From NCBI GenBank assembly GCA_024280155.1, contig JAJRQQ010000010.1:1-45098 (forward strand): a stretch of DNA of 45,098 bases, written 5' to 3'. Source of the stretch: Bacteroidota bacterium (GTDB lineage Bacteria; Bacteroidota; Bacteroidia; Flavobacteriales_D; Crocinitomicaceae). Position 1 is the first letter of the stretch, and every line of letters begins with the position of its first letter. The translations under genes were made by a program, and so were the position numbers. A model generated the notes under the pieces. That model ran no database searches. It saw nothing but the letters and a program-made list of their open reading frames with translations, and had not been told where the DNA came from. Below are positions 18,179-28,092 of this stretch, one piece after another.

Positions 18179-18212
18179 AACGTCATTTCTTAAAATGAGA
18201 GATAGCTTGTAT
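18179..18212 (+). repeat. Left copy of direct repeat flanking the peptide cluster
   Basis: The element starts AACGTCATTTCTTAAA and ends AGCTTGTAT. It matches 27313-27345 in the same orientation with two substitutions and one single-base gap. It ends 3 bases before the reconstructed tolC stop codon. The right copy forms part of the ric promoter. The two copies bound the ~9.1-kb cluster and could be insertion-site duplicates or a shared operator. Confidence 0.65.
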
Positions 18213-18215
18213 AAA

Positions 18216-19522
18216 TTAATCGTAGACTTTAAAAAACGTCAATATTAATCTTGAAAACTCCAACTGGTATTTTGCTTGTATCATTTCTGATTCTGCTTTA
18301 AAAAAACATTTTTTGATTCTATAAAAGTAACAAAGTTAATTACTCCGTTATCGTACTTAATTTGGCTGTTCTCAAATTCTAATTTAGAAGAAACTTGAAG
18401 TTGTTTTGCAGATTCATACAAAGAAGTTGCGTTAGCAACATCCATTTTAAATTGCTGAATTCTATTGTCATACTCAAGCAAAGATTGTTCACCCTCAATT
18501 CTAACACGTTCTAATTCCAATTGGTTAATTTTAATTTGACTACTTGTTTTATACCCATTAAAAATTGGAATACTCAACGTTGCTGAAACAGATTGATAAA
18601 AATTCTCGGTTAATTGTGTTCCAAATGGCTTTGGAATAAGTTCCCCGTTAGGGTCAACAAATTTATTATTCTCTGAATAACCACTACCCAAAGAACCATT
18701 CAAAACAAGGCTTGGGGAAAGTTGACTTTTGGTTCGTTTAGATTCTAGTAACTGTTTTTCGATGTTCAGTTGAGATATTTTTACTTCAAGCGGTGCTGCA
18801 CATGTAGAGTTAGAACCATTTTGATTTAAACTAGAAGTTTGCTCGTTTGCTAGAGAAAACGTTGAATCATAGTCAATTCCTATAAGTTGTTGCAATTGAA
18901 GCAAAGAAGAATTTAGCTCATTTTTTGCCTTTGTGAGTGTGTAGACATCATTGGCTAATTGCGCTTCAATTGGAAGCAAGTCACTATGCGTAATTCTTTC
19001 TGCATTCACTAATACCTCTGTTCTCTCTTTTTGTGATTGTGTTAAAGAAAGTTGTTCTTTGGCAACTTCAACGATTTCAAAATTCAATTTCGCTTTTAAA
19101 TAAGCCAATGTTATATCAATGGATTTGTTTCGCCTTTCAATCTCTAAATTGTAGAGTTGAGACTGATAATCGACTTCTGCTATTTTTTTAGCGTGATACT
19201 TCTCCAGCCCACCAAAAAGTGTAACACTACTGTTTAAATAAAAGTTGTTGTATTGCACCCTAGAATTTGCAAATGTGTTTGTAAAAGGGTCAATTGTCTG
19301 CCCAAAATTATAACCGTGAGTTCCTCCAGCGTTTATTGATGGCAAAAAACTAAGATTGGATGTTTTGAGTGTGATTTCAGCTTTATTTACATTAATTTCT
19401 GACATCTGTAACATTTTATTGTTCTGTAATGCTGAATCAATACACTGATTTAATGTCCAGCCATTTTGTGAGAATGAGTTAAATGCAACAAATAGTGATA
19501 TGAAAAATAAATACTTCATCAT
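18216..19522 (-). CDS. TolC-family outer-membrane channel (one frameshift near the 3' end)
   Basis: A signal peptide (FISLFVAFNSFSQ) and two helical-barrel repeats typical of TolC proteins (NGWTLNQCIDSALQNNKMLQ; LNGSLGSGYSENN). As sequenced, the frame stops at 18281 after NVFLKQNQK. Adding one T to the seven-base run at 18300-18306 restores the family C-terminus (NVFFKAESEMIQAKYQL...) and moves the stop to 18216, giving 435 residues, a normal length. The ATG overlaps the stop of the HlyD gene by 4 bases. With HlyD and the peptidase-ABC protein it would form a channel across both membranes for the modified peptide. The frameshift may be a base-calling error. Confidence 0.85.
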
Positions 19523-20856
19523 TCAAAAACAGTCATGAATTTATTGAAAATTCGTTCCATTAAGCGTAAATCTTTTGTAATTATTTCGGCAGAACCTGAC
19601 ATTTCAGGAGTGTATTCAAAAGTTTTACCGTAAGATGATTTCAATCCTTTGCTTAACTTAAATTCTACTCGATATTGTTTTTGATTTGCCGATTCAGAAC
19701 TGGTAGAAGCTACACCGTCAGTTGCTATTAGTGAAATTGAAGTAATAACTCCATCTAATTGTCCAAATTCATGAAAAGGATAATTATCAACCTTGATTCT
19801 AACTTTTTGCCCAATCTTAATTTTGCCATAACCTTGTTGAGGAACGGTTAGATAACCTATAAATTCTTGATTATTTGTAATAATTGCAAACAAAGCTTTG
19901 CCGCTTTCTACAAATTGATTTACTGCAACGTTTTCGAGATATGACAACTCTCCATCAATGGGCGATTTAATCTCAAAATTTCTACCCCAATTATCAATAG
20001 CATTCCTAATTATGCCTATAGAAGCTCTAATTTTTGTCAGAAAGCCATTTTTTTGCTTGTTGTATTCAATAGAAATTTGCGCCAGTTCTTTTTTCAAGTC
20101 AGTGATTCTAATCGAACTTTCAACGGATGCTTTTTTGTAATTACCTACTTCGTTTTCTGCTTGAATGAGTTTCTTTTCTTCCTCGTAGAATTCCATCTTA
20201 GAAATGACATTCTTCTTAAAGAGAATCTTGTCAGATTTGAATTTTTCTTGTGCTCTTGAAAGTTGTTTTTGCGAGGTGTTTAATTGCTGATAAGCAACTG
20301 AACGAAGAATCGTATAGTTCTTAATTTGGTCTCTTAAATTTGCAATCTGAACTCTTTGCGTGCTGTTTGAAGAAAAGAATTTATAATCTAAATAAGCTGT
20401 TTTTAGAGCTTGATAATCTGCTTGAATTGTTCCAAAAACAAGTTCTTCATCTTCAAAATTAACATTGAACCGATAGCTATCGGTTCCATTGTCTTCTAAA
20501 GATGTTTCTATTTCATAGCAAAGAACTTCTAAGTATTCTTTTGAAGGTAAATCTAAAGAGTTCTCTATGAGTGCAATCATGTCTCCTTTTTTTACTTTTT
20601 TGTGGTCTGTGCAGCTTAATGCGTTTATTTCTCCTGAATTTTTAGTGAACAATTTTACCGTTGGAACTTTTGTAGAAAGTGTTGCTGACCCCGTTATAAC
20701 ATCGGGGTATTTGATGAACCAAGTGATGAAAATGCCAAGTGCAATAAGGATAAAAATAAGTGTTATGCCCCAACGTATCATCCAGTTTGGAACGTGCGAC
20801 ATTATTTCTTGCACTTTGTCACTTCGTAAATTAATATGTTCTTTTTTCTCTGGCAT
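19519..20856 (-). CDS. HlyD-family periplasmic adaptor of the peptide exporter
   Basis: 445 residues: a short cytoplasmic N-terminus, one membrane segment at about 29-49 (WGITLIFILIALGIFITWFI), a half-lipoyl strand segment (GEINALSCTDHKKVKKGDMI), a long coiled coil (~130-280), and the second half-motif followed by a beta-barrel domain (FEIKSPIDGELSYLENVAVN; GQKVRIKVDNYP). This is the membrane-fusion architecture used with C39-peptidase exporters of Bacteroidota. It links the ABC protein in the inner membrane to TolC. It follows the ABC gene after a 63-base gap containing a 24-bp hairpin and overlaps tolC by 4 bases. Confidence 0.93.
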   Translation of the reverse strand: MPEKKEHINLRSDKVQEIMSHVPNWMIRWGITLIFILIALGIFITWFIKYPDVITGSATLSTKVPTVKLFTKNSGEINALSCTDHKKVKKGDMIALIENSLDLPSKEYLEVLCYEIETSLEDNGTDSYRFNVNFEDEELVFGTIQADYQALKTAYLDYKFFSSNSTQRVQIANLRDQIKNYTILRSVAYQQLNTSQKQLSRAQEKFKSDKILFKKNVISKMEFYEEEKKLIQAENEVGNYKKASVESSIRITDLKKELAQISIEYNKQKNGFLTKIRASIGIIRNAIDNWGRNFEIKSPIDGELSYLENVAVNQFVESGKALFAIITNNQEFIGYLTVPQQGYGKIKIGQKVRIKVDNYPFHEFGQLDGVITSISLIATDGVASTSSESANQKQYRVEFKLSKGLKSSYGKTFEYTPEMSGSAEIITKDLRLMERIFNKFMTVFE

Positions 20857-20871
20857 TTATTCTTTTTATCG

Positions 20872-20930
20872 TAAACACACAAAATATTGTTGACTTCGAG
20901 AGCCTCAGTCAACAATATTTTATGTGTTTA
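20872..20930. repeat. Hairpin repeat with conserved loop, copy 2 (overlaps exporter gene stop)
   Basis: A 24-bp stem with one mismatch (20872-20895 against 20907-20930) around the loop TCGAGAGCCTC, the reverse complement of the loop at 4330-4340. The right arm contains the stop codon of the ABC gene (20920-20922) and its last codons, so the left arm looks like an inverted copy of the gene end. It lies between the ABC and HlyD genes and could lower readthrough into hlyD-tolC. Confidence 0.75.
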
Positions 20931-23124
20931 ATTTCTCCAAATCTAATTGGTTCTTTACCAACGTAAAGTAGCTTCCTTTTAATTTTACCAATTCTTGATG
21001 TGTTCCTTTTTCTATGATTCTTCCTCTATCGAGAACTACAATCTGGTCAGCATTTTTTACAGTACTCAATCGGTGTGCAATAACAATGGCTGTTCTATCT
21101 TTGAAGAACTCGTGTAGATTCTCCATAATGATACGCTCATTTTTTGCATCAAGAGCAGAAGTTGCTTCATCAAAACAGATAATATCTGGATTTTTATAAA
21201 CGGCTCTAGCGATGAGTAAGCGTTGTTTTTGTCCTGTACTCATACCGACACCTTCCATACCAATTTTAGTATTAAAGCCCAAAGGTAAACCAGAAATAAA
21301 CTCTTGAATATTGGCAATTTTCACAGCTTTCAATAACTTTTCTTGGTCTATTGTTTCTTGACCAATAGCAATGTTATTGGCAATGGTATCGTTAAAAATA
21401 TAGCCTTCTTGCATCACAACCCCACACTTTGCTCGCCATGTTCGTTGCGAAATGGTATTTAGGTTGATGTTTCCAAATTTCATTTCTCCAGTTTCGGTTT
21501 CGTAGAATTTCAGGAGCATTTTCATAAGCGTTGTTTTTCCGCTACCACTTGCGCCAACAATGGCAGTTATTTTATTGGTAGGAATGGTTAAATTCAATTC
21601 TTCTATGACTTTATTTGAAGTACCTTTATAGCGAAAACTAATGTCGTTTAACTCTATATCTGCGTTAACTGGAATTTGATGCGTTTTTTCTTCTCCGATA
21701 ATTTCTTCATCTTCTTTGTTGTGAATTTCAGAAAGACGTTCTATGGCAATTTTTGCATCTTGAACGGTATAAATAAAGCCAATTAATTGTTGAATAGGAG
21801 AATTTAATTGACCAATAATATAGGTTATTGCCATCATCATACCGAGTGTTATTTCTCCGTCAATAACTAACTTTGCAGAAAGAATGGTAATAAAAATATT
21901 CTTAACCTCGTTGATAACGTTAGAACCTGTGGTTTGTGTTTGTTGTAGAGCAAGGTTTTTCGTTTCAATTTTAAAAAGGCGTGCTTGCAGATATTCCCAA
22001 CTCCAACGTTTTTGCTTTTCAGCATTGTGGAGTTTAATCTCTTGCATCCCATTGATGAGTTCCATAACCTTGCTTTGCTCATCACTCATTTGAGCAAAAC
22101 GCTTGTAATCGAGGTCTTTTCGTTTTTTTAAAAACAAGACAACCCAAATAAAATAGAGAACACTACCTGCAAGAAAAACAAGGAAAATAGTAATGTTGTA
22201 CCAAGCCAAAACTCCTCCAAAAATAACGAGGTTGAACATCGAAAAAAGAACATTCAGCGAGGTTGTGGTCAATAAGTTTTCAATACGCTGGTGGTCATTG
22301 ATACGTTGCATAATATCTCCTGTCATTTTGCTGTCAAAATAAGCGATGGGTAGGTTCATTAGTTTGATAAAAAAATCTGAAACGAGCGAAATGTTGATAC
22401 GTGTGCTTAGATGTAATAAAATCCAACCTCTAATGAGTTCTATGGCTGTTCTTCCTGCAAATAAAAAGAGTTGAGCAATGAGAATGAGGTAAATAAAACT
22501 AATGTCTTGGTTTTGAATACCAATATCAACAACACTTTGAGTCAAAAAAGGAAAAACAAGTTGCAATAAACTCCCCGCAAGAAGACCTATGACTAATTGA
22601 AACAGAAACTTTTTGTAGCGAAACAGGTATTGATACAAGAAAGAAAAACCCTGACGGGTTTCTACATCATCGTCTTCTGATTGTTTTAGTTTAGGTGTAG
22701 GTTCTAGTAGTAAAGCAATGCCTTCTTCGGTTGTTTCTGTTGCATTTTCTCCTATCCAATTTTTAAGGAACTCTTTTTTAGTTAGTTTTATAAGACCGTG
22801 ACCAGGGTCAGCAATCCAAACAGTATCTTTCTGAATCTTATAGACAACTACAAAGTGGTTTTGATTCCAATGTACAATACAAGGTAAAGGTGCTTCTGTT
22901 TTTAACTTGTTATAGTCTATTTTAACACCTAAAGTTCTGAAACCAATTTTTTCGGCAGAATTGGCAATATTGCTAAGGCTAGACCCTTCACGGGTGGTTT
23001 CGGAGAGTTTACGGAGTTTTTCTAAGGAAATGGAACGACCGTAGTGTTTTGCAACCATGCGTAGGCAGGTTGGTCCGCAATCCATTTGGTCAGGTTGGAG
23101 GAAGAAAACAAATTTATTCCTCAT
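20920..23124 (-). CDS. Peptidase-containing ABC exporter (C39 peptidase, membrane domain, ATPase)
   Basis: 734 residues, normal for this class. The N-terminal C39 peptidase has Gln10, catalytic Cys16 (QMDCGPTC), His90 (NHFVVVY) and Asp106 (ADPGHG), so cleavage after a double-glycine leader is expected. A six-helix ABC membrane domain covers ~170-450. The ATPase has Walker A GASGSGKTT near 521, a slightly altered signature MSTGQKQR, and Walker B IICFDEATSALD. It would remove the leader of the 60-residue precursor encoded at the cluster head and drive export through HlyD and TolC. Its start overlaps the end of the SPASM gene by 11 bases. Confidence 0.96.
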   Translation of the reverse strand: MRNKFVFFLQPDQMDCGPTCLRMVAKHYGRSISLEKLRKLSETTREGSSLSNIANSAEKIGFRTLGVKIDYNKLKTEAPLPCIVHWNQNHFVVVYKIQKDTVWIADPGHGLIKLTKKEFLKNWIGENATETTEEGIALLLEPTPKLKQSEDDDVETRQGFSFLYQYLFRYKKFLFQLVIGLLAGSLLQLVFPFLTQSVVDIGIQNQDISFIYLILIAQLFLFAGRTAIELIRGWILLHLSTRINISLVSDFFIKLMNLPIAYFDSKMTGDIMQRINDHQRIENLLTTTSLNVLFSMFNLVIFGGVLAWYNITIFLVFLAGSVLYFIWVVLFLKKRKDLDYKRFAQMSDEQSKVMELINGMQEIKLHNAEKQKRWSWEYLQARLFKIETKNLALQQTQTTGSNVINEVKNIFITILSAKLVIDGEITLGMMMAITYIIGQLNSPIQQLIGFIYTVQDAKIAIERLSEIHNKEDEEIIGEEKTHQIPVNADIELNDISFRYKGTSNKVIEELNLTIPTNKITAIVGASGSGKTTLMKMLLKFYETETGEMKFGNINLNTISQRTWRAKCGVVMQEGYIFNDTIANNIAIGQETIDQEKLLKAVKIANIQEFISGLPLGFNTKIGMEGVGMSTGQKQRLLIARAVYKNPDIICFDEATSALDAKNERIIMENLHEFFKDRTAIVIAHRLSTVKNADQIVVLDRGRIIEKGTHQELVKLKGSYFTLVKNQLDLEKLNT

Positions 23125-24219
23125 TAATTTCGTTGTTTACTTGAGTAATTCGCTTATGGTTAATGGAAAATTCTTTTTCATTTGAAATTACACCTGATTC
23201 AGCTAAATTTCGATAACCTTTTTCATGAGACCACTTGGCAATGTATGGATTATAACCACATTTAGAAGGTCTGGCATTAGGTCTTTCCTTAGAGTCTGTA
23301 AATGCTCTGCAGTCAATACACATTCTTCGATACTCACAATCTTTACATACTTCAATCTCATCTTTAACAGTCCTTTTTAATTCATTATAATGATTACTTT
23401 TTATAAAAGACTCAATAGTATTGTATTTGTTGTCAGTAACAATTGAAGGGCAAGAGCAGAGTTTTCCATCAAAGTTAATAGACACCTTCTTGCTTAAACA
23501 TGTGTTTGCACAACTACTAGAAATAAAAACTTCTCTGTTAATACTGAAATTATCAGACTCGATAATGCCACAATCGTTAATAAAGTCAGTGTTCTCTCGT
23601 ATATAAATAGATTTATCGACAGCTGAAGATTGAGGTGAATTATAAATAATATGTTTAGAAATTCGTTGTTCTTTATTAATAATTTTCTCTATAGAAGAAT
23701 TAAATAACTCATTGATATATTTAGAGCGAATTAAAATTGAAACAAAGGTACTATTGATGAAAGCACTCATTAATTTTTCAAAATTACTAATACTCAACTC
23801 TTGGATTCTTAGCTCTAATCTGTTGCATAAAAAAAATTGAATCTCATTTAAGAATCTGATTATAGGTTCAATATTTGAATTACTTATACAAACAATTGAG
23901 TTTTCAACAATTTCAGGTCTATAATCAGTTATTGACATTTCACTTAGATGTTGCTTCAAATATAAATCACCTATTATTGCGTATTCGTTTTCTATTAAGA
24001 ACTCAATATATTCTAATATATTACTTCTGCTTTTTTCGTCAGAATAGTATTTAAGAACTGAATCTATTGATTCTACTTCCAATTTCTTTACAATAATTGA
24101 GAGGGAATGAGGAATCACATTAGAATTAGAAGGACGTGTTAAATCGTAAATAATTGATTGTTTATATCCACTGACTATTTGGCAATCCGCAAAAAAATAA
24201 GATGCTTATTTTTGAACAT
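23114..24219 (-). CDS. SPASM-domain peptide maturase, grasp-with-SPASM type (one frameshift near the start)
   Basis: The SPASM domain near the C-terminus is clear: Cys at CANTC, then KLCSCPS, then CKDCEYRRMCIDC and a last Cys in SKCGYNPY, suited to bind auxiliary iron-sulfur clusters. No CxxxCxxC radical-SAM motif is present, which agrees with what I recall of this family. The sequenced frame opens only at a GTG at 24118, but a family-like N-terminus (FFADCQIVSGYKQSIIYDL) is encoded upstream. It joins an ATG at 24219 if one T is added to the run of seven at 24191-24197, giving 368 residues. The gene sits between the ATP-grasp and exporter genes. Its chemical role is unknown. The frameshift may be an error, a slippage site or a real loss. 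Confidence 0.85.
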
Positions 24220-24367
24220 TTTTATAATTTGAAATTCTTTTATAGTAGGCATCAATTTTTAATTTAGAAGTTTGAAAAACTTCTGACCTTACTAATAAAT
24301 TAGTGTTTGGGTTTTTAGGTTTAAGCTTGGTATATCCTTCAAAAATAAGGGGTAGATTGTTTTTCAT
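24206..24367 (-). CDS. Small ORF (53 residues) linking the grasp and SPASM genes
   Basis: It starts with MKNNLPLIFEGYTKLKPK and ends ISNYKNVQK. The frame is open for 53 codons in an AT-rich stretch that would otherwise be the only long gap in the operon. Its ATG lies inside the 3' end of the ATP-grasp gene (29-base overlap) and its TAA overlaps the first codons of the SPASM gene (14 bases), the arrangement expected for translational coupling. The product is basic, has no signal peptide or membrane segment, and matches nothing I can name with confidence. It could be an accessory factor for precursor recognition, or just a coupling ORF. Confidence 0.55.
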   Translation of the reverse strand: MKNNLPLIFEGYTKLKPKNPNTNLLVRSEVFQTSKLKIDAYYKRISNYKNVQK

Positions 24368-25325
24368 TTGTTAAAAAATTAAATATTAAAGAGTCCAAAT
24401 TGTAATTACAGTAATATTGAACCATACCATACTGTCCAACGGGATTAACTTCAAGAAACACGTACTCGTTATCGTTATTTAAAATAAGATCAATTGAACC
24501 AGTATTCAATCCCATTCTTTTCATAAACTTTATTACTTTGTTATTTATGCTCAAGGGTAAGTTAAACGGGACCATTCTGTTAAGTTTATCAAAATTATAA
24601 TTTCTAAAATCAACTTTAGTTGATTCGTCAAGTTGTGAAAAAATAGCCATAGAATAACATTTTCCATGAATGTAGAAAACTCGAATTTCAATTTTTTTAT
24701 TAACATATTCTTGGATACAAGACGGAAAAATTTTGAGTGTTTTCTTCTCAAATGATTTTTTATTTAACAACTCATACTTGGTGTAAAACCATGAATTGTT
24801 TTTTAAAAGCATAAAACTATCTTCAATAGGTTTAATTATCTTGTCTTCGTAATTGTTTATTAAATAATTTAAACTAGAACTAACATGAGTTTCTGGAATT
24901 ATAAATCCGACTTCTTTTGCAAGCATAAAACTAATCAATTTGTTACCGTCTCCCATATTAATGTTTCCTAGAAACGTTTTCGTCTCTAATAAAAAAATCA
25001 GATACTCCTTTAAAGCTAGAATTTCTGAAGATAATAAATAATCATTTATTTCATTATACTCATTTTTTAAATCAGATTTGAGAGTAAATTTTTTAAATAG
25101 CTCTAAATCATTCTTTCTAAACCAAAAAGATTCAATATCGCTAAATAAATATTTCTTTGAATTAACAATAAATTCAAATTCAAACTGAGTGTTTGATATT
25201 TTAATATTCAAACACTCGATAAAATTACTTTCAGTTAATCTTAAAAAAGGAATTTTATAAAGCCGTAAATATTTGATTACATTATTAGTAGAGACATCTA
25301 CATCATTAGAAACTATAAAGATCAT
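24339..25325 (-). CDS. ATP-grasp peptide maturase, grasp-with-SPASM type
   Basis: 328 residues, typical for the family. N-terminal pre-ATP-grasp part (MIFIVSNDVDVSTNNVIKYL; FWFRKND), then the ATP-grasp fold with the binding Lys in KIIKPIEDSF, the strand IFPSCIQEYVNKKIEIRVF, the family hallmark KVDFRNYN...MVPF, and the metal-binding motif NTGSIDL...FLEVNPVGQ near 270-295. Relatives that make graspetides activate Asp or Glu side chains with ATP and join them to Ser/Thr (ester) or Lys (amide) in a precursor. The likely substrate is the 60-residue peptide at 26514-26696. The start codon overlaps the stop of a small upstream ORF as ATGA. Confidence 0.93.
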   Translation of the reverse strand: MIFIVSNDVDVSTNNVIKYLRLYKIPFLRLTESNFIECLNIKISNTQFEFEFIVNSKKYLFSDIESFWFRKNDLELFKKFTLKSDLKNEYNEINDYLLSSEILALKEYLIFLLETKTFLGNINMGDGNKLISFMLAKEVGFIIPETHVSSSLNYLINNYEDKIIKPIEDSFMLLKNNSWFYTKYELLNKKSFEKKTLKIFPSCIQEYVNKKIEIRVFYIHGKCYSMAIFSQLDESTKVDFRNYNFDKLNRMVPFNLPLSINNKVIKFMKRMGLNTGSIDLILNNDNEYVFLEVNPVGQYGMVQYYCNYNLDSLIFNFLTNEKQSTPYF

Positions 25326-25477
25326 ACCATATAACTTATAAATAAACCTTTTTCTTTTAAAATAGGATCCAAGTCTTTGTTCTTAAAATATTGTGGTAAA
25401 TCTTTCTTAGTTTTAAGTCTGAACAATGCCCGTAATAGCCTTTCCTCTAGGGAAAGTGTGCGGATACCATATTCCAC
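25322..25477 (-). CDS. Small ORF (51 residues) coupled to the ATP-grasp gene
   Basis: From GTG at 25477 the frame reads EYGIRTLSLEERLLRALF and ends GLFISYMV, 51 residues with no stop, and its TGA overlaps the ATG of the ATP-grasp gene (ATGA). That overlap and the 11-base gap to the upstream gene are the main reasons to call it. No ATG is available in this frame, so the GTG is the only usual start. The product is basic and helical (RLLRALFRLKTKKDLPQYF), without signal peptide. I do not recognise it. Alternatives: an untranslated leader, or the displaced 3' end of the upstream gene, although a stop in this frame a few codons upstream argues against the latter. Confidence 0.45.
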   Translation of the reverse strand: MEYGIRTLSLEERLLRALFRLKTKKDLPQYFKNKDLDPILKEKGLFISYMV

Positions 25478-25488
25478 TCTATTTTTAT

Positions 25489-26451
25489 CTATGTTTTTTT
25501 GACTCTCTCTATCAAATTGTATCTTTCATAATAATTCATCCTTGTTTCAAGTAAAGTTCTTGAGTAATACGTTAATCCAAAATCATTTTCGATTAATCTT
25601 GTTGACTCTTTCATGTTTATAAGAAGATAAGGAGGTAATTTAAGGTCGTTAACACCTTTTTCTATCACCTTGAATAACGAAGTGTCGAGTTGAGTTATGT
25701 TGTCCATAGTGATGTAGTGGGTTAAAAACCAGGAGCCAACATCCATAGAAAGCCAGATTGCCTTAGAGTCTTTATGGTTGAACTTTAAGAATGGTACTTC
25801 ATCAAACAAAGTGTCTTTTTTCAGACAAATATAGAATGCTTTAGAATTATCTTTCTTAACCTTTCTAACTTGTTTATAACTTAATCTTCGACCCGTTTCT
25901 TTATCATTTATGTAACCGTATATATTTACTAGCTTTATATATTGATTCCTTAACTGTTTCATTTCTGTAAAGTATTCGAATCTTAATTCATTAGTTTTCA
26001 TTATTTTTGACCGAATTGCTTTTCTTCTTAAATCAAGCTTAGCATATTCTCCCATTTTTAACTTATTTAATTGATTTAAGAAAATGGTTCTTTTTTCAAT
26101 AAATAAATTATTGTCTAGTAAATAATTATTGTTATCATTCCAAACTTTGACAATAAAATTATATTCGTTTTTTGTCATACCTCTCTCAATCGCTTTTGTG
26201 ATAAGAAAGAGCAACTTGGGTTTACTGCCAACATAACAAGAAATGTATGCTGCTTGAATCAATTGTTTAGCATATGGATAATTGTACTTTTTTAATACTA
26301 TCAGGTAGTTATCAAGAGCTGAATCTAATTTGTTTTCAATTATGTATTTCTCACTTATTTGTATTTCTTCTGAATACTTTTTATAGATGTTTTTTGATAA
26401 ACAAACAAATTGAATCAATAATATAAAAGTTAAAAGAAAGAATTTTTTCAT
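25489..26451 (-). CDS. Secreted or periplasmic helical protein of unknown function in the peptide cluster
   Basis: 320 residues with a strong signal peptide (FFLLTFILLIQFVCLSKN, cleavage uncertain; the Cys is not in a clear lipobox). The N-terminal ~120 residues look like TPR-type helical hairpins (IENKLDSALDNYLIVLKKYN); the rest is helical, rich in Lys, Asn, Tyr and Leu, with Arg/Lys-rich stretches (LDLRRKAIRSKIMKTNEL) and no catalytic motif I can identify. It lies just downstream of the precursor and its terminator and upstream of the maturases. Being exported, it is unlikely to modify the peptide in the cytoplasm; immunity, a receptor role or late processing are possibilities without direct support. 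Confidence 0.8.
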   Translation of the reverse strand: MKKFFLLTFILLIQFVCLSKNIYKKYSEEIQISEKYIIENKLDSALDNYLIVLKKYNYPYAKQLIQAAYISCYVGSKPKLLFLITKAIERGMTKNEYNFIVKVWNDNNNYLLDNNLFIEKRTIFLNQLNKLKMGEYAKLDLRRKAIRSKIMKTNELRFEYFTEMKQLRNQYIKLVNIYGYINDKETGRRLSYKQVRKVKKDNSKAFYICLKKDTLFDEVPFLKFNHKDSKAIWLSMDVGSWFLTHYITMDNITQLDTSLFKVIEKGVNDLKLPPYLLINMKESTRLIENDFGLTYYSRTLLETRMNYYERYNLIERVKKT

Positions 26452-26469
26452 TTGATTTAAAAAGTTAAT

Positions 26470-26500
26470 AAAAATAAAAGAGAGGGGTCCCCCCCTTCTC
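26470..26500 (-). terminator. Terminator or attenuator just after the precursor gene
   Basis: On the minus strand GAGAAGGGG and CCCCTCTC form a GC-rich stem with one bulge and a short loop, followed by TTTTATTTTT. It lies 13 bases after the precursor stop and 29 before the next gene, so it would make the short precursor mRNA more abundant than the full operon mRNA. The stem contains a run of seven identical bases (C7 on +). Confidence 0.75.
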
Positions 26501-26513
26501 TGATAGTGAAAAT

Positions 26514-26696
26514 CTAATCAAATTTTATTCTATCCCCATTCCCTATCGTTCCGTCAAGAAGATTGGTGAATACAGTTTTACCTATTCTCACATCGGTAGC
26601 ATCATTTGTTTGTTGGGTTACAATACCTCCTCCTTTAGTTTGAGACTGGAATGTGTTTGAAATTTTTTTGCCTTCAAAATTTTTAATTGATTTCAT
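26514..26696 (-). CDS. Precursor peptide of the grasp-with-SPASM cluster (double-glycine leader)
   Basis: 60 residues. The leader MKSIKNFEGKKISNTFQSQ runs to the Gly-Gly-Gly at 22-24, where a C39 peptidase would cut. The core (about 25-60) is rich in Thr (27, 30, 34, 41, 44, 50) and Asp (32, 35, 48, 55, 60) with Lys at 40 and 58, that is, acceptor and donor side chains of the kind used for grasp-ligase ester or amide crosslinks. The core has no Cys or Ser, so lanthipeptide- or sactipeptide-type thioethers are not expected. It is first in the operon and followed by a terminator. The assignment as substrate is inferred from position, leader and composition. Confidence 0.85.
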   Translation of the reverse strand: MKSIKNFEGKKISNTFQSQTKGGGIVTQQTNDATDVRIGKTVFTNLLDGTIGNGDRIKFD

Positions 26697-26786
26697 ATTT
26701 ATTTTTATTAAAATAATCCCACAGATTGTTTTCTATCTTTACTCACGCATTGTGGGTAACTACGACAGTAAAGATTGCGTAAAGTT

Positions 26787-26808
26787 ATCCGTCTGACATC
26801 AGATAGAT
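26787..26808. promoter_or_regulatory. Interrupted palindrome, candidate operator for the XRE regulator
   Basis: ATC-CG-TCTGA-CA-TCAGA-TA-GAT is symmetric in all eight positions of each arm. It lies in the 242-base spacer between the divergent precursor and XRE genes, about 90 bases from the precursor ATG, a suitable place for a shared operator. The same spacer also has a small hairpin (CTCTTT-TTGT-AAAGAG, 26811-26826) and CCCACA/TGTGGG arms (26718-26756). Confidence 0.35.
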
Positions 26809-26908
26809 TACTCTTTTTGTAAAGAGAAAGTGTCAGCATTTTCTTTTTAATAATGCCAAACATATTTATTTTTTCTCTAAAAAAAGAAAGTCTCACTTAT
26901 AATTTATT

Positions 26909-26916
26909 TATATTTG
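26909..26916 (+). promoter_or_regulatory. Bacteroidota -7 promoter box for the XRE regulator
   Basis: TATATTTG, an exact TAnnTTTG match, 22 bases before the ATG of the regulator. No clear -33 element is visible. Confidence 0.6.
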
Positions 26917-26938
26917 CTTATAATATAAAATTATCAAA

Positions 26939-27292
26939 ATGAATTCAATAGGTTTAAAGATAAAAAAAATAAGAGAATATAACAATCTTACACAAGAATA
27001 CATGGCTAGTCAAATGGATATTTCACAGCCTGCTTATGCTCAATTAGAAAATGGCTCTTCTAAAATTTCAAGTCAGCGTTTAAAACAAATATCTAAAATA
27101 TTAAATGTAGATCCTAAAAATTTGGAAAGTTGTGAAGAGATTACGCTTAATATTCACAACAATACGTTGAATTATAATTCGAGTATAATCAAAGAGTTAA
27201 ACTCAAAACAAAATGAGCTGTATGAGCGTTTACTTGCTGAGAAAAACAAAGTCATTGAGCGTTTGGAAAATGAGTTGAAAAAATTGAAATAG
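26939..27292 (+). CDS. XRE-family transcriptional regulator with C-terminal coiled coil
   Basis: 117 residues. The first ~62 residues form a Cro/C1-type helix-turn-helix domain (IKKIREYNNLTQEYMASQMDIS...QLENGSSKIS). The C-terminal third is a likely coiled coil (ELNSKQNELYERLLAEKNKVIERLENELKK) for dimer or higher assembly. It is divergent from the peptide operon and separated from it by a 242-base spacer with a candidate operator, so it is the probable regulator of precursor expression. It is the only gene of the cluster on the plus strand and ends 20 bases before the right direct repeat. Confidence 0.9.
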   Translation: MNSIGLKIKKIREYNNLTQEYMASQMDISQPAYAQLENGSSKISSQRLKQISKILNVDPKNLESCEEITLNIHNNTLNYNSSIIKELNSKQNELYERLLAEKNKVIERLENELKKLK

Positions 27293-27312: not shown

Positions 27313-27345
27313 AACGTCATTTCTTAAATCAGAGAGAGCTTGTAT
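27313..27345 (+). repeat. Right copy of direct repeat flanking the peptide cluster; part of the ric promoter
   Basis: AACGTCATTTCTTAAA...AGCTTGTAT, nearly identical to 18179-18212. The last bases overlap the ric -7 box. Recombination between the two copies would excise the whole cluster and leave ric with an intact promoter. It may instead be the binding site of a nitric-oxide-responsive regulator of ric. Confidence 0.65.
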
Positions 27346-27369: not shown

Positions 27370-28092
27370 ATGAAAAACTATAAAACAATGACCGTTGCTG
27401 AAATTGTAACGGATAAAATAGAAGCTGGAGATGTCTTTAAGAAATACGACATTGATTTTTGTTGTGGTGGAGGTGTAAAATTATCTACAGTTTGCCAAGA
27501 AAACAGTATAAATATCGACGAAATTGTGGCAGAGATTGAGCAGCGTTCTTCAACAGTTTTCTCAACCCATGATTATGCTTCTTGGGACCTTGATTTCTTG
27601 GCCGATTTTGTTGTCAACACACACCATAAATTTGTTGAAAGAGAAAGTCCTGTTTTATTGCAATATTCTGAGAAAGTGGCGCAAGTACATGGTCATTCTC
27701 ACCCAGAAGTTATTCGCATTAATGAATTAGCACACGCACTTGTAGATGAATTATTGGGACACATGCAGAAAGAAGAAATGATTCTTTTTCCAAACATCAA
27801 AGCAATTGCGAATACTCAAAAAAATGGAACTGCATACAATACGCCACCTTTTGGAAGTTTGCAAAATCCAATTAATGTGATGGAAGCAGAACATGATGGT
27901 GCTGGTGATATTATCAAAGAGATTAAGAAATTAACCAATGATTTTACGCCACCAGAAGATGCTTGTAATACTTTTAATGCTCTGTATGCAAAATTAGAAG
28001 CGTATCAAAACGATTTATTTCAGCACATTCATATTGAGAATAACATCTTATTTCCAAAAGCGATAGAGTTGGAGAAAGGAATTATGATGTAA
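27370..28092 (+). CDS. ric: Iron-sulfur cluster repair di-iron protein (RIC/ScdA/YtfE family)
   Basis: 240 residues. The N-terminal ScdA domain has the signature IDFCCGGG near residues 36-43; the C-terminal hemerythrin-like domain supplies the His and Glu ligands of a di-iron site (VVNTHHKFVERES; HGHSHPEV; LLGHMQKEEMILFP; VMEAEHDGAGDI; HIHIENNILFPKA). The family repairs iron-sulfur clusters damaged by nitric oxide or oxidants in the cytoplasm and is usually induced by nitrosative stress. Its promoter overlaps the right direct repeat of the peptide cluster. Convergent with leuS, separated from it by a terminator. Confidence 0.95.
   Translation: MKNYKTMTVAEIVTDKIEAGDVFKKYDIDFCCGGGVKLSTVCQENSINIDEIVAEIEQRSSTVFSTHDYASWDLDFLADFVVNTHHKFVERESPVLLQYSEKVAQVHGHSHPEVIRINELAHALVDELLGHMQKEEMILFPNIKAIANTQKNGTAYNTPPFGSLQNPINVMEAEHDGAGDIIKEIKKLTNDFTPPEDACNTFNALYAKLEAYQNDLFQHIHIENNILFPKAIELEKGIMM

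Follow-up and report, generated by a model that had tools for sequence, protein, structure and literature searches.

A gene cluster in a Bacteroidota bacterium of the Crocinitomicaceae raises the question of what a SPASM protein that lacks the radical SAM motif contributes to peptide maturation beside an ATP-grasp ligase. The cluster occupies part of a stretch of 45,098 nucleotides, the whole of which we call the window (positions 1 to 45,098 of contig JAJRQQ010000010.1, assembly GCA_024280155.1). Because both proteins match their NCBIfam models, TIGR04192 (GRASP_w_spasm) and TIGR04193 (SPASM_w_grasp), the cluster is, by sequence family, a real graspetide cluster of the published grasp-with-SPASM type. 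Judged from its predicted fold, the SPASM protein probably acts as a pseudo-radical-SAM partner, binding the precursor leader for the ATP-grasp ligase, and as an explanation of the locus as a whole we favour, with moderate confidence, a leader-binding, decayed radical-SAM SPASM partner serving that ligase. Transcription runs on the minus strand from 26696 to 18281 in the order precursor, hairpin, secreted protein, ATP-grasp ligase, 53-residue protein, SPASM protein, C39-ABC exporter, HlyD and TolC, with a regulator gene diverging from it. The features, from the left, are:

18281–19522, minus strand: TolC/OEP outer-membrane channel (PF02321, 139.6 bits)
19519–20856, minus strand: HlyD-type periplasmic adaptor (PF13437, 46.5 bits; TIGR01843, 106.5 bits, under the TIGR01843 cut-off)
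20920–23124, minus strand: C39 peptidase-ABC exporter, for leader removal and export (PF03412, PF00664 and PF00005, above cut-offs)
23114–24205, minus strand: SPASM protein (TIGR04193, 191.6–191.9 bits for the whole open frame)
24206–24367, minus strand: LPL-type small protein of 53 residues (N-terminal LPL and C-terminal K-x-I-S motifs; counterpart in the closest relative, locus L078)
24339–25325, minus strand: ATP-grasp ligase, a graspetide synthetase (TIGR04192, 283.2 bits, cut-off 230)
25322–25525, minus strand: C-terminal part of the secreted protein in another frame, stop codon included (continuous with the rest in L078)
25489–26451, minus strand: secreted protein of a family that is mostly DUF6624-type (family profile, E 1.1e-12; at the position of the 'cluster 23' protein of Makarova 2022)
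26476–26499, minus strand: terminator-like hairpin between the precursor and the downstream genes
26514–26696, minus strand: double-glycine precursor of 60 residues (matches to open reading frames of relatives)
26939–27292, plus strand: divergent XRE/HTH_3 regulator (PF01381, 48.6 bits)

The first-pass annotation of this DNA had proposed a complete grasp-with-SPASM cluster with dedicated C39/ABC-HlyD-TolC export. The family assignment was borne out, the SPASM open frame scoring well over the TIGR04193 cut-off of 175, as were the export genes, whose Pfam models are matched. The gene order it gave was right apart from two corrections described below, and the double-glycine precursor, the terminator-like hairpin, the second small open reading frame (ORF) and the divergent XRE regulator are all present. 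Only the completeness has to be qualified, since the gene set is there but two genes of this sequence carry frame breaks. By gene content alone, the cluster fits branch 5 of Makarova 2022 (PMC8939145) and group 14 of Carter 2026 (PMC13097080), as these are described in the portions of the two papers on which we draw, and it is an ordinary, slightly damaged representative of this published graspetide group. It shares with these systems ATP-grasp and SPASM proteins above cut-offs, an LPL-type protein between them, a double-glycine precursor, a C39/ABC-HlyD exporter and a secreted protein. Going by its sequence, it probably produces a peptide tied through its side chains and secretes it.

Relatives were collected within the order and across species genomes. 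The SPASM_w_grasp model matched in 32 of 399 genomes of the order (19 above cut-off, the window's own included), and the ATP-grasp model in 16 of 149 (11 above cut-off). Of the 26 places located with the ATP-grasp model, 21 had a SPASM gene within 1.5 kb; the window counts among the 26, and two of them (L015 and L025) are pieces of a single gene. Among the five places without a SPASM gene, L006 is cut by a contig end, L028 has an internal stop, L017 and L018 are matches of E ~7e-4 to much longer open frames, and L016 is a weak match (87 bits). By tblastn, relatives of the SPASM protein are encoded in at least 530 stretches of species genomes. The best 80 of them were examined, and these 80 species-genome loci, five of which we take to be Acidobacteriota, one Gemmatimonadota and the others Bacteroidota, underlie the counts that follow. 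An ATP-grasp gene stood at most 1 kb upstream on the same strand for 81 of their 86 SPASM open frames. The exceptions were L100, where the ATP-grasp gene overlaps the long frame, L108 and L157, where it is 1.0–1.2 kb upstream, L137, which starts at the locus edge, and L110, where the locus holds no ATP-grasp gene. The survey of genome context that had been proposed thus upheld the pairing of the two genes. When the single window ATP-grasp protein was used as query for related loci, 36 candidate stretches were obtained and none was confirmed. The window differs from its grasp-with-SPASM relatives in that its precursor has no family match, in its two frame breaks, and in having TolC in the same directon; the window TolC as single-sequence query was found in only 2 of the 80 loci.

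We searched the SPASM proteins for the CxxxCxxC motif at any position and found it in none of 46 open frames (the window, one fragment and relatives included) and in none of the 86 frames of the species-genome loci, two sets that have at least two contigs in common. The looser pattern C-x(2-5)-C-x(2-3)-C, sought with the last 150 residues excluded, was likewise absent from all 86. Because neither set holds the motif, its absence is, as far as these sequences go, a family trait. The first-pass annotation had seen correctly that the SPASM protein lacks a radical SAM motif; its suggestion that this points to unexplained additional chemistry gives way here to that of an inert, leader-binding partner.

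The SPASM protein consists of an RRE-type domain (about residues 1–85), a shortened barrel (about 95–205) and a SPASM domain (about 205–330). An AlphaFold model computed from an alignment with 78 of the 80 loci reached a mean predicted local distance difference test score (pLDDT) of 86.1 and a predicted template modelling score of 0.80, and it shows four strands and three helices at residues 2–72, four strands alternating with three helices at residues 102–188, and the C-terminal SPASM part. In a Foldseek search of the PDB with the whole protein, the best match was SuiB, a radical SAM-SPASM maturase of a ribosomally synthesized and post-translationally modified peptide (RiPP), with E 5.5e-4 and probability 0.99; it was the only match with E ≤0.001, and SkfB stood at rank 5. 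When the first 90 residues were modelled separately (pLDDT 83.5), the picture was more uniform, in that ranks 1–35 of the 50 listed PDB matches were all RiPP or microcin biosynthesis proteins (probability 0.77–1.00). They were led by leader-bound lasso-peptide B1 proteins, which are RRE domains (TMq up to 0.70), and further included ThcOx, TigE, MccB, McbBCD, the sactipeptide enzyme 5wgg, the PbtF RRE, TruD and the heterocyclase 4v1u/4v1v. All 35 presumably contain an RRE or RRE-like domain. At the other end of the protein, seven cysteines (C212, C252, C287, C290, C296, C299 and C316 in window numbering) are Cys in 79 of 79 aligned SPASM proteins and an eighth, C236, in 78, and eight is the number of cysteines that bind the two auxiliary [4Fe-4S] clusters of SPASM enzymes. 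The TIGR04085 model matched all 79 proteins at E up to 1, the window protein with 20.7 bits (under the cut-off of 27), and PF13186 matched 54 of the 79 at E up to 10.

Several results weigh against a leader-binding, chemically inert SPASM protein in this cluster. The E-values of the 35 top matches of the N-terminal domain run from 0.009 to 0.44, none being ≤0.001, so that the consistency of the list, not any single match, carries the RRE claim; rank 36 and ranks 38–50 look unrelated, with SuiB at rank 37. Over the whole protein the TM-score to SuiB was 0.32, and ranks 3–4 were unrelated ion channels of low probability. In profile comparison, hhalign of the N-terminal domain against PqqD gave P 0.02 with controls at 0.045–0.54, which is not significant, PqqD was absent among the 25 of 56 Pfam families listed, and a PDB sequence search with the SPASM profile returned a single match, at E 1.6. 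A purely structural role would make the conservation of the eight SPASM cysteines costly. Finally, the frame breaks in two of its genes mean that this particular cluster may be non-functional.

The evolution of the pair speaks for the ATP-grasp and SPASM proteins acting as a unit, because their distances co-vary (r 0.40, p 0.001, n 40; r 0.36, p 0.001, n 74) while those to the exporter do not do so significantly (SPASM-C39, r 0.14, p 0.109; grasp-C39, r 0.04, p 0.285), and because the two genes are nearly always adjacent. A usable pair was available in 74 of the 80 loci, 40 of them with a C39 match, and the C39 gene taken was the nearest one, which is maybe not the cluster's own. For the alignments, A2 comprised 78 of the 80 loci (L100, whose open frame extends far upstream, and L159 were left out) and A3 used 63 of the 80.

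The frame breaks bear on the best surviving alternative, which is that this copy of the cluster is decaying, that both breaks are real mutations and that no peptide is made. The SPASM gene had been annotated as one open frame, 23114–24219, from an ATG at 24219. Its match to the SPASM family stood, but the frame did not, since that ATG gives 14 codons and then a stop. The conserved frame is open from 24205, with its first in-frame ATG, GTG or TTG a GTG at 24118. From this GTG the product scores 165.9 bits on TIGR04193, under the cut-off, and the full open frame, which exceeds it, aligns with the family from the third position. The second break ends the secreted-protein gene. The first small ORF of the first-pass annotation (25322–25477, 51 residues), which we considered as a separate gene, was rejected: in L078 the secreted protein and this piece form a single open frame, with 26 of 49 residues identical there (counted by eye), and the piece thus encodes, in a different frame, the C terminus of the secreted protein. 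Without L078, the profile of the secreted family, whose other members are more distant, missed the piece (E 5.3). Both breaks fall at 7-nt homopolymers, in the runs starting at 24191 (SPASM gene) and 25494 (secreted-protein gene). We counted 45 runs of at least 7 nt in the genes of the window and saw breaks at these two only; at the other 43 the ORFs look open, although not each was compared with relatives. The breaks may stem from assembly error, recent mutation or slippage. Decay would account for two breaks within one operon and for another SPASM-family fragment that this genome carries at the edge of a contig (a SPASM_w_grasp match of 57.7 bits at G000:C55:130-258, locus L002, near the start of another contig). 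But 7-nt homopolymers are a usual site of assembly or sequencing error, and the breaks would have to be recent, because the pieces downstream of both still resemble relatives. We regard decay of this copy as rather unlikely, and it would be compatible with a leader-binding SPASM partner at the level of the family.

A second alternative concerns the chemistry of the SPASM protein itself. In the part of Makarova 2022 relevant here (PMC8939145), it is presented as a radical SAM enzyme, possibly one forming C-C, C-O or C-S bonds. We consider this unlikely. At least 78 of 79 proteins retain the eight ligand positions for the auxiliary clusters, and Cys is also conserved at residues 8 (78/79) and 127 (76/79), in keeping with such an enzyme; against one speak the missing CxxxCxxC motif and, ahead of the final 150 residues, the lack of even the looser triple. 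Moreover, four strands and three helices lie between the RRE-like and SPASM parts of the model, and a radical SAM barrel has more of both. Residues 8 and 127 lie outside the SPASM motif, as does residue 20 (Cys in 69 of 79, Tyr in the window), and the three could possibly form a further metal site.

The precursors divide on the same question. In the window, the leader ends in TKGG and the core that follows GGG has 36 residues, among them Ser/Thr/Lys and Asp/Glu but no Cys; the precursor is of the double-glycine type and stands in the same operon as the ligase. Searches with NCBIfam and Pfam found no family for it at E up to 1, and as a single sequence it matched ORFs in L078 (1.4e-18 and 2.1e-17), L086 (2e-6) and L085 (9.1e-6), with L062 found only after iteration. 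Candidate precursors of relatives were taken from 92 first-pass ORFs, 72 of which passed the filter, both lists containing some chance ORFs. Core cysteines occur in 47 of the 72, which would suit a radical SAM enzyme, whereas 25 of them, like the window, have a Cys-free core. We also considered the SPASM protein as a general former of thioethers and rejected this, as no frame of either set has the CxxxCxxC motif; because the window core and 25 of 72 candidate cores are Cys-free, thioether formation as its general role is unlikely. Five candidate precursors (L138, L145, L150, L156 and L159) contain core stretches like D-x-N-x-(D/N)-G-x-x-(D/N)-x-G-E, which resemble a calcium-binding loop. The portions of PMC8939145 and PMC13097080 used here describe no product for the grasp-with-SPASM group.

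Between the ligase and the SPASM gene lies the 53-residue protein, whose counterpart at the same position in L078 was found by single-sequence search (E 4.1e-7). An ORF of 40–95 residues occupies this gap in 77 of the 80 pairs. The C-terminal motif was present in loose form in 71 of these 77 ORFs, the aligned Pro in 73 and the Ser of K-x-I-S in 69; in gaps with more than one small ORF, the ORF richer in motifs was chosen, which favours the motif counts. According to the main text of Makarova 2022 (PMC8939145), the ATP-grasps of branch 5 are "highly specific for Bacteroides" and their loci contain a SPASM gene and nearly always a small 'LPL' protein directly upstream as well as a secreted 'cluster 23' protein. 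The same text points out a likeness between the LPL motif and the Phh[x1-2]h leader motif, the latter being one that branch 5 precursors are without; the C-terminal motif ('KPIS') was not found in that main text. We doubt the published proposal that LPL is a PqqD-like leader binder, because the RRE-type fold sits in the SPASM protein; LPL may be a second binder. That the ATP-grasp itself recognises the leader, with LPL as a detached activating leader and the SPASM protein as an assembly scaffold or chaperone only, is improbable, for it would fit the likeness of the LPL motif to the leader motif missing from branch 5 precursors and the conservation of the Pro and Ser at the LPL position, but would leave the predicted leader-binding fold of the SPASM N-terminal domain superfluous.

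The window SPASM protein and its ATP-grasp ligase can be set beside several known systems. With SuiB and other RRE-containing radical SAM-SPASM maturases the SPASM protein shares the succession of leader-binding domain, barrel and SPASM domain, the order that we take SuiB to have. It differs from them in lacking CxxxCxxC and in its shortened barrel, and for these two reasons radical SAM catalysis is not expected. A graspetide synthetase that needs a partner is known from rosaritide, where the dependence of MirB on MirC, whose N-terminal domain is weakly RRE-like, was shown experimentally (Carter 2026, PMC13097080, in the portion used here). MirC, unlike the window SPASM protein, is chaperone/PPIase-like, and the dependence demonstrated for MirB-MirC is one that we infer for the window pair. 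The window ATP-grasp belongs to the same ligase superfamily as the microviridin-type MvdC and MvdD, scoring 126.8 bits on the MvdC model, but this lies under the MvdC cut-off of 425 and the window precursor has no PFFARFL motif. The model TIGR04150, which is named pseudo-rSAM, was matched by 29 of the 79 SPASM proteins at E up to 1; in L118 and L163 the match spans the SPASM domain only and is far under the cut-off of 250.

The first gene downstream of the hairpin, which had been called a secreted unknown, does encode a secreted protein, and its family can now be placed: most members are DUF6624-type, while the window copy itself has no direct DUF6624 match. A profile of the family built without the window protein and L078 finds the window protein (E 1.1e-12). 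The DUF6624 profile (PF20329) matches 29 of 38 family members (37 loci) at E <1e-5, and in profile-profile comparison the family and DUF6624 align over 275 columns with probability 100 and E 7e-43. Against Pfam, the window protein gave no match at E up to 1; the DUF6624 profile did not find it, found L078 only at E 0.8, and gave P 0.02 with a two-sequence profile. We therefore rejected the window protein itself as a DUF6624 member in the direct test, in which only the wider family qualifies; at the sequence level, the DUF6624 part is not recognisable in the window copy, which is too divergent. A DUF6624 or secreted-family protein occurs in 47 of the 80 species-genome loci, with 48 of 50 such matches on the SPASM strand and 49 of 50 within 3.5 kb, and DUF6624 genes above cut-off adjoin such clusters in two further genomes. 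Because the secreted family matches DUF6624 and sits in such loci on the SPASM strand, the 'cluster 23' of Makarova 2022 is probably DUF6624, a domain named in the cited portion of Carter 2026 (PMC13097080).

For the leader-binding SPASM partner that we favour, the steps would be as follows. The SPASM protein, a putative decayed radical-SAM maturase that would have lost CxxxCxxC and part of the barrel and kept the cysteines for two auxiliary iron-sulfur clusters, would use its N-terminal RRE domain to hold the precursor leader, which ends in GG. In the complex so formed, the SPASM protein would present the core to the ATP-grasp ligase, which would tie Thr/Ser/Lys to Asp/Glu side chains, and LPL may assist or activate this cross-linking step. 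The C39 domain would then cut after GG, and ABC-HlyD-TolC would secrete the cyclic peptide. The secreted protein might work in the envelope, in immunity or trimming, which is a guess. Whether the whole group consists of a complex of ATP-grasp, LPL and fossil radical SAM protein, in which the RRE of a dead enzyme would recognise the leader, the iron-sulfur clusters would be a mere scaffold and LPL would be an activating leader segment supplied in trans, is a more tentative matter; we would call it possible, on balance short of probable.

The cluster is bounded by an imperfect direct repeat of 33/34 bp, found by genome pattern search, whose copies lie just outside the TolC and XRE genes:

18179–18212, plus strand: left copy of the direct repeat
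27313–27345, plus strand: right copy of the direct repeat

These are the only two copies in the 2.86-Mb assembly by that search, and none was present in the 33 other congeners searched. The maturation genes at 23–27 kb have a GC content of 0.26–0.31, against 0.30–0.40 elsewhere in the window, and among same-genus genomes matches to the ATP-grasp and SPASM models occur only in the window's own genome and G016. Repeat, low GC and restricted occurrence together suggest, from sequence, that the cluster is an inserted block. The right copy adjoins a gene at 27370–28092 for a Hemerythrin/ScdA_N protein of the Fe-S cluster repair type, which is found in 9 of 34 genus genomes at E 1e-3, its own included. 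We considered whether the repeat could be the promoter of this gene: it had no exact match in the 33 other congeners, an exact 16-mer occurred only in window-derived loci among 189, and the repeat was not seen in the upstream regions of the hemerythrin/ScdA genes of four of five relatives. Within the region, terminator-like sites number 8, compared with 3.7 (sd 2.0) in shuffles. A 24-nt inverted repeat at 20872–20930 (96% complementary, 11-nt spacer) spans the short intergenic stretch that separates the C39 exporter gene from that for HlyD and could be an attenuator or processing hairpin.

The link between the secreted family and DUF6624 probably joins observations that were made separately in the parts of PMC8939145 and PMC13097080 considered here. 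The main point of interest to specialists is that the SPASM protein can be read as a leader-binding pseudo-radical-SAM partner. If this is true, the printed description of the SPASM protein as a radical SAM enzyme would be corrected. It would also explain why expressing the ATP-grasp by itself in a foreign host might be unsuccessful. What the SPASM protein does, if it binds the leader instead of acting as a radical enzyme, would be directly testable by simple coexpression.

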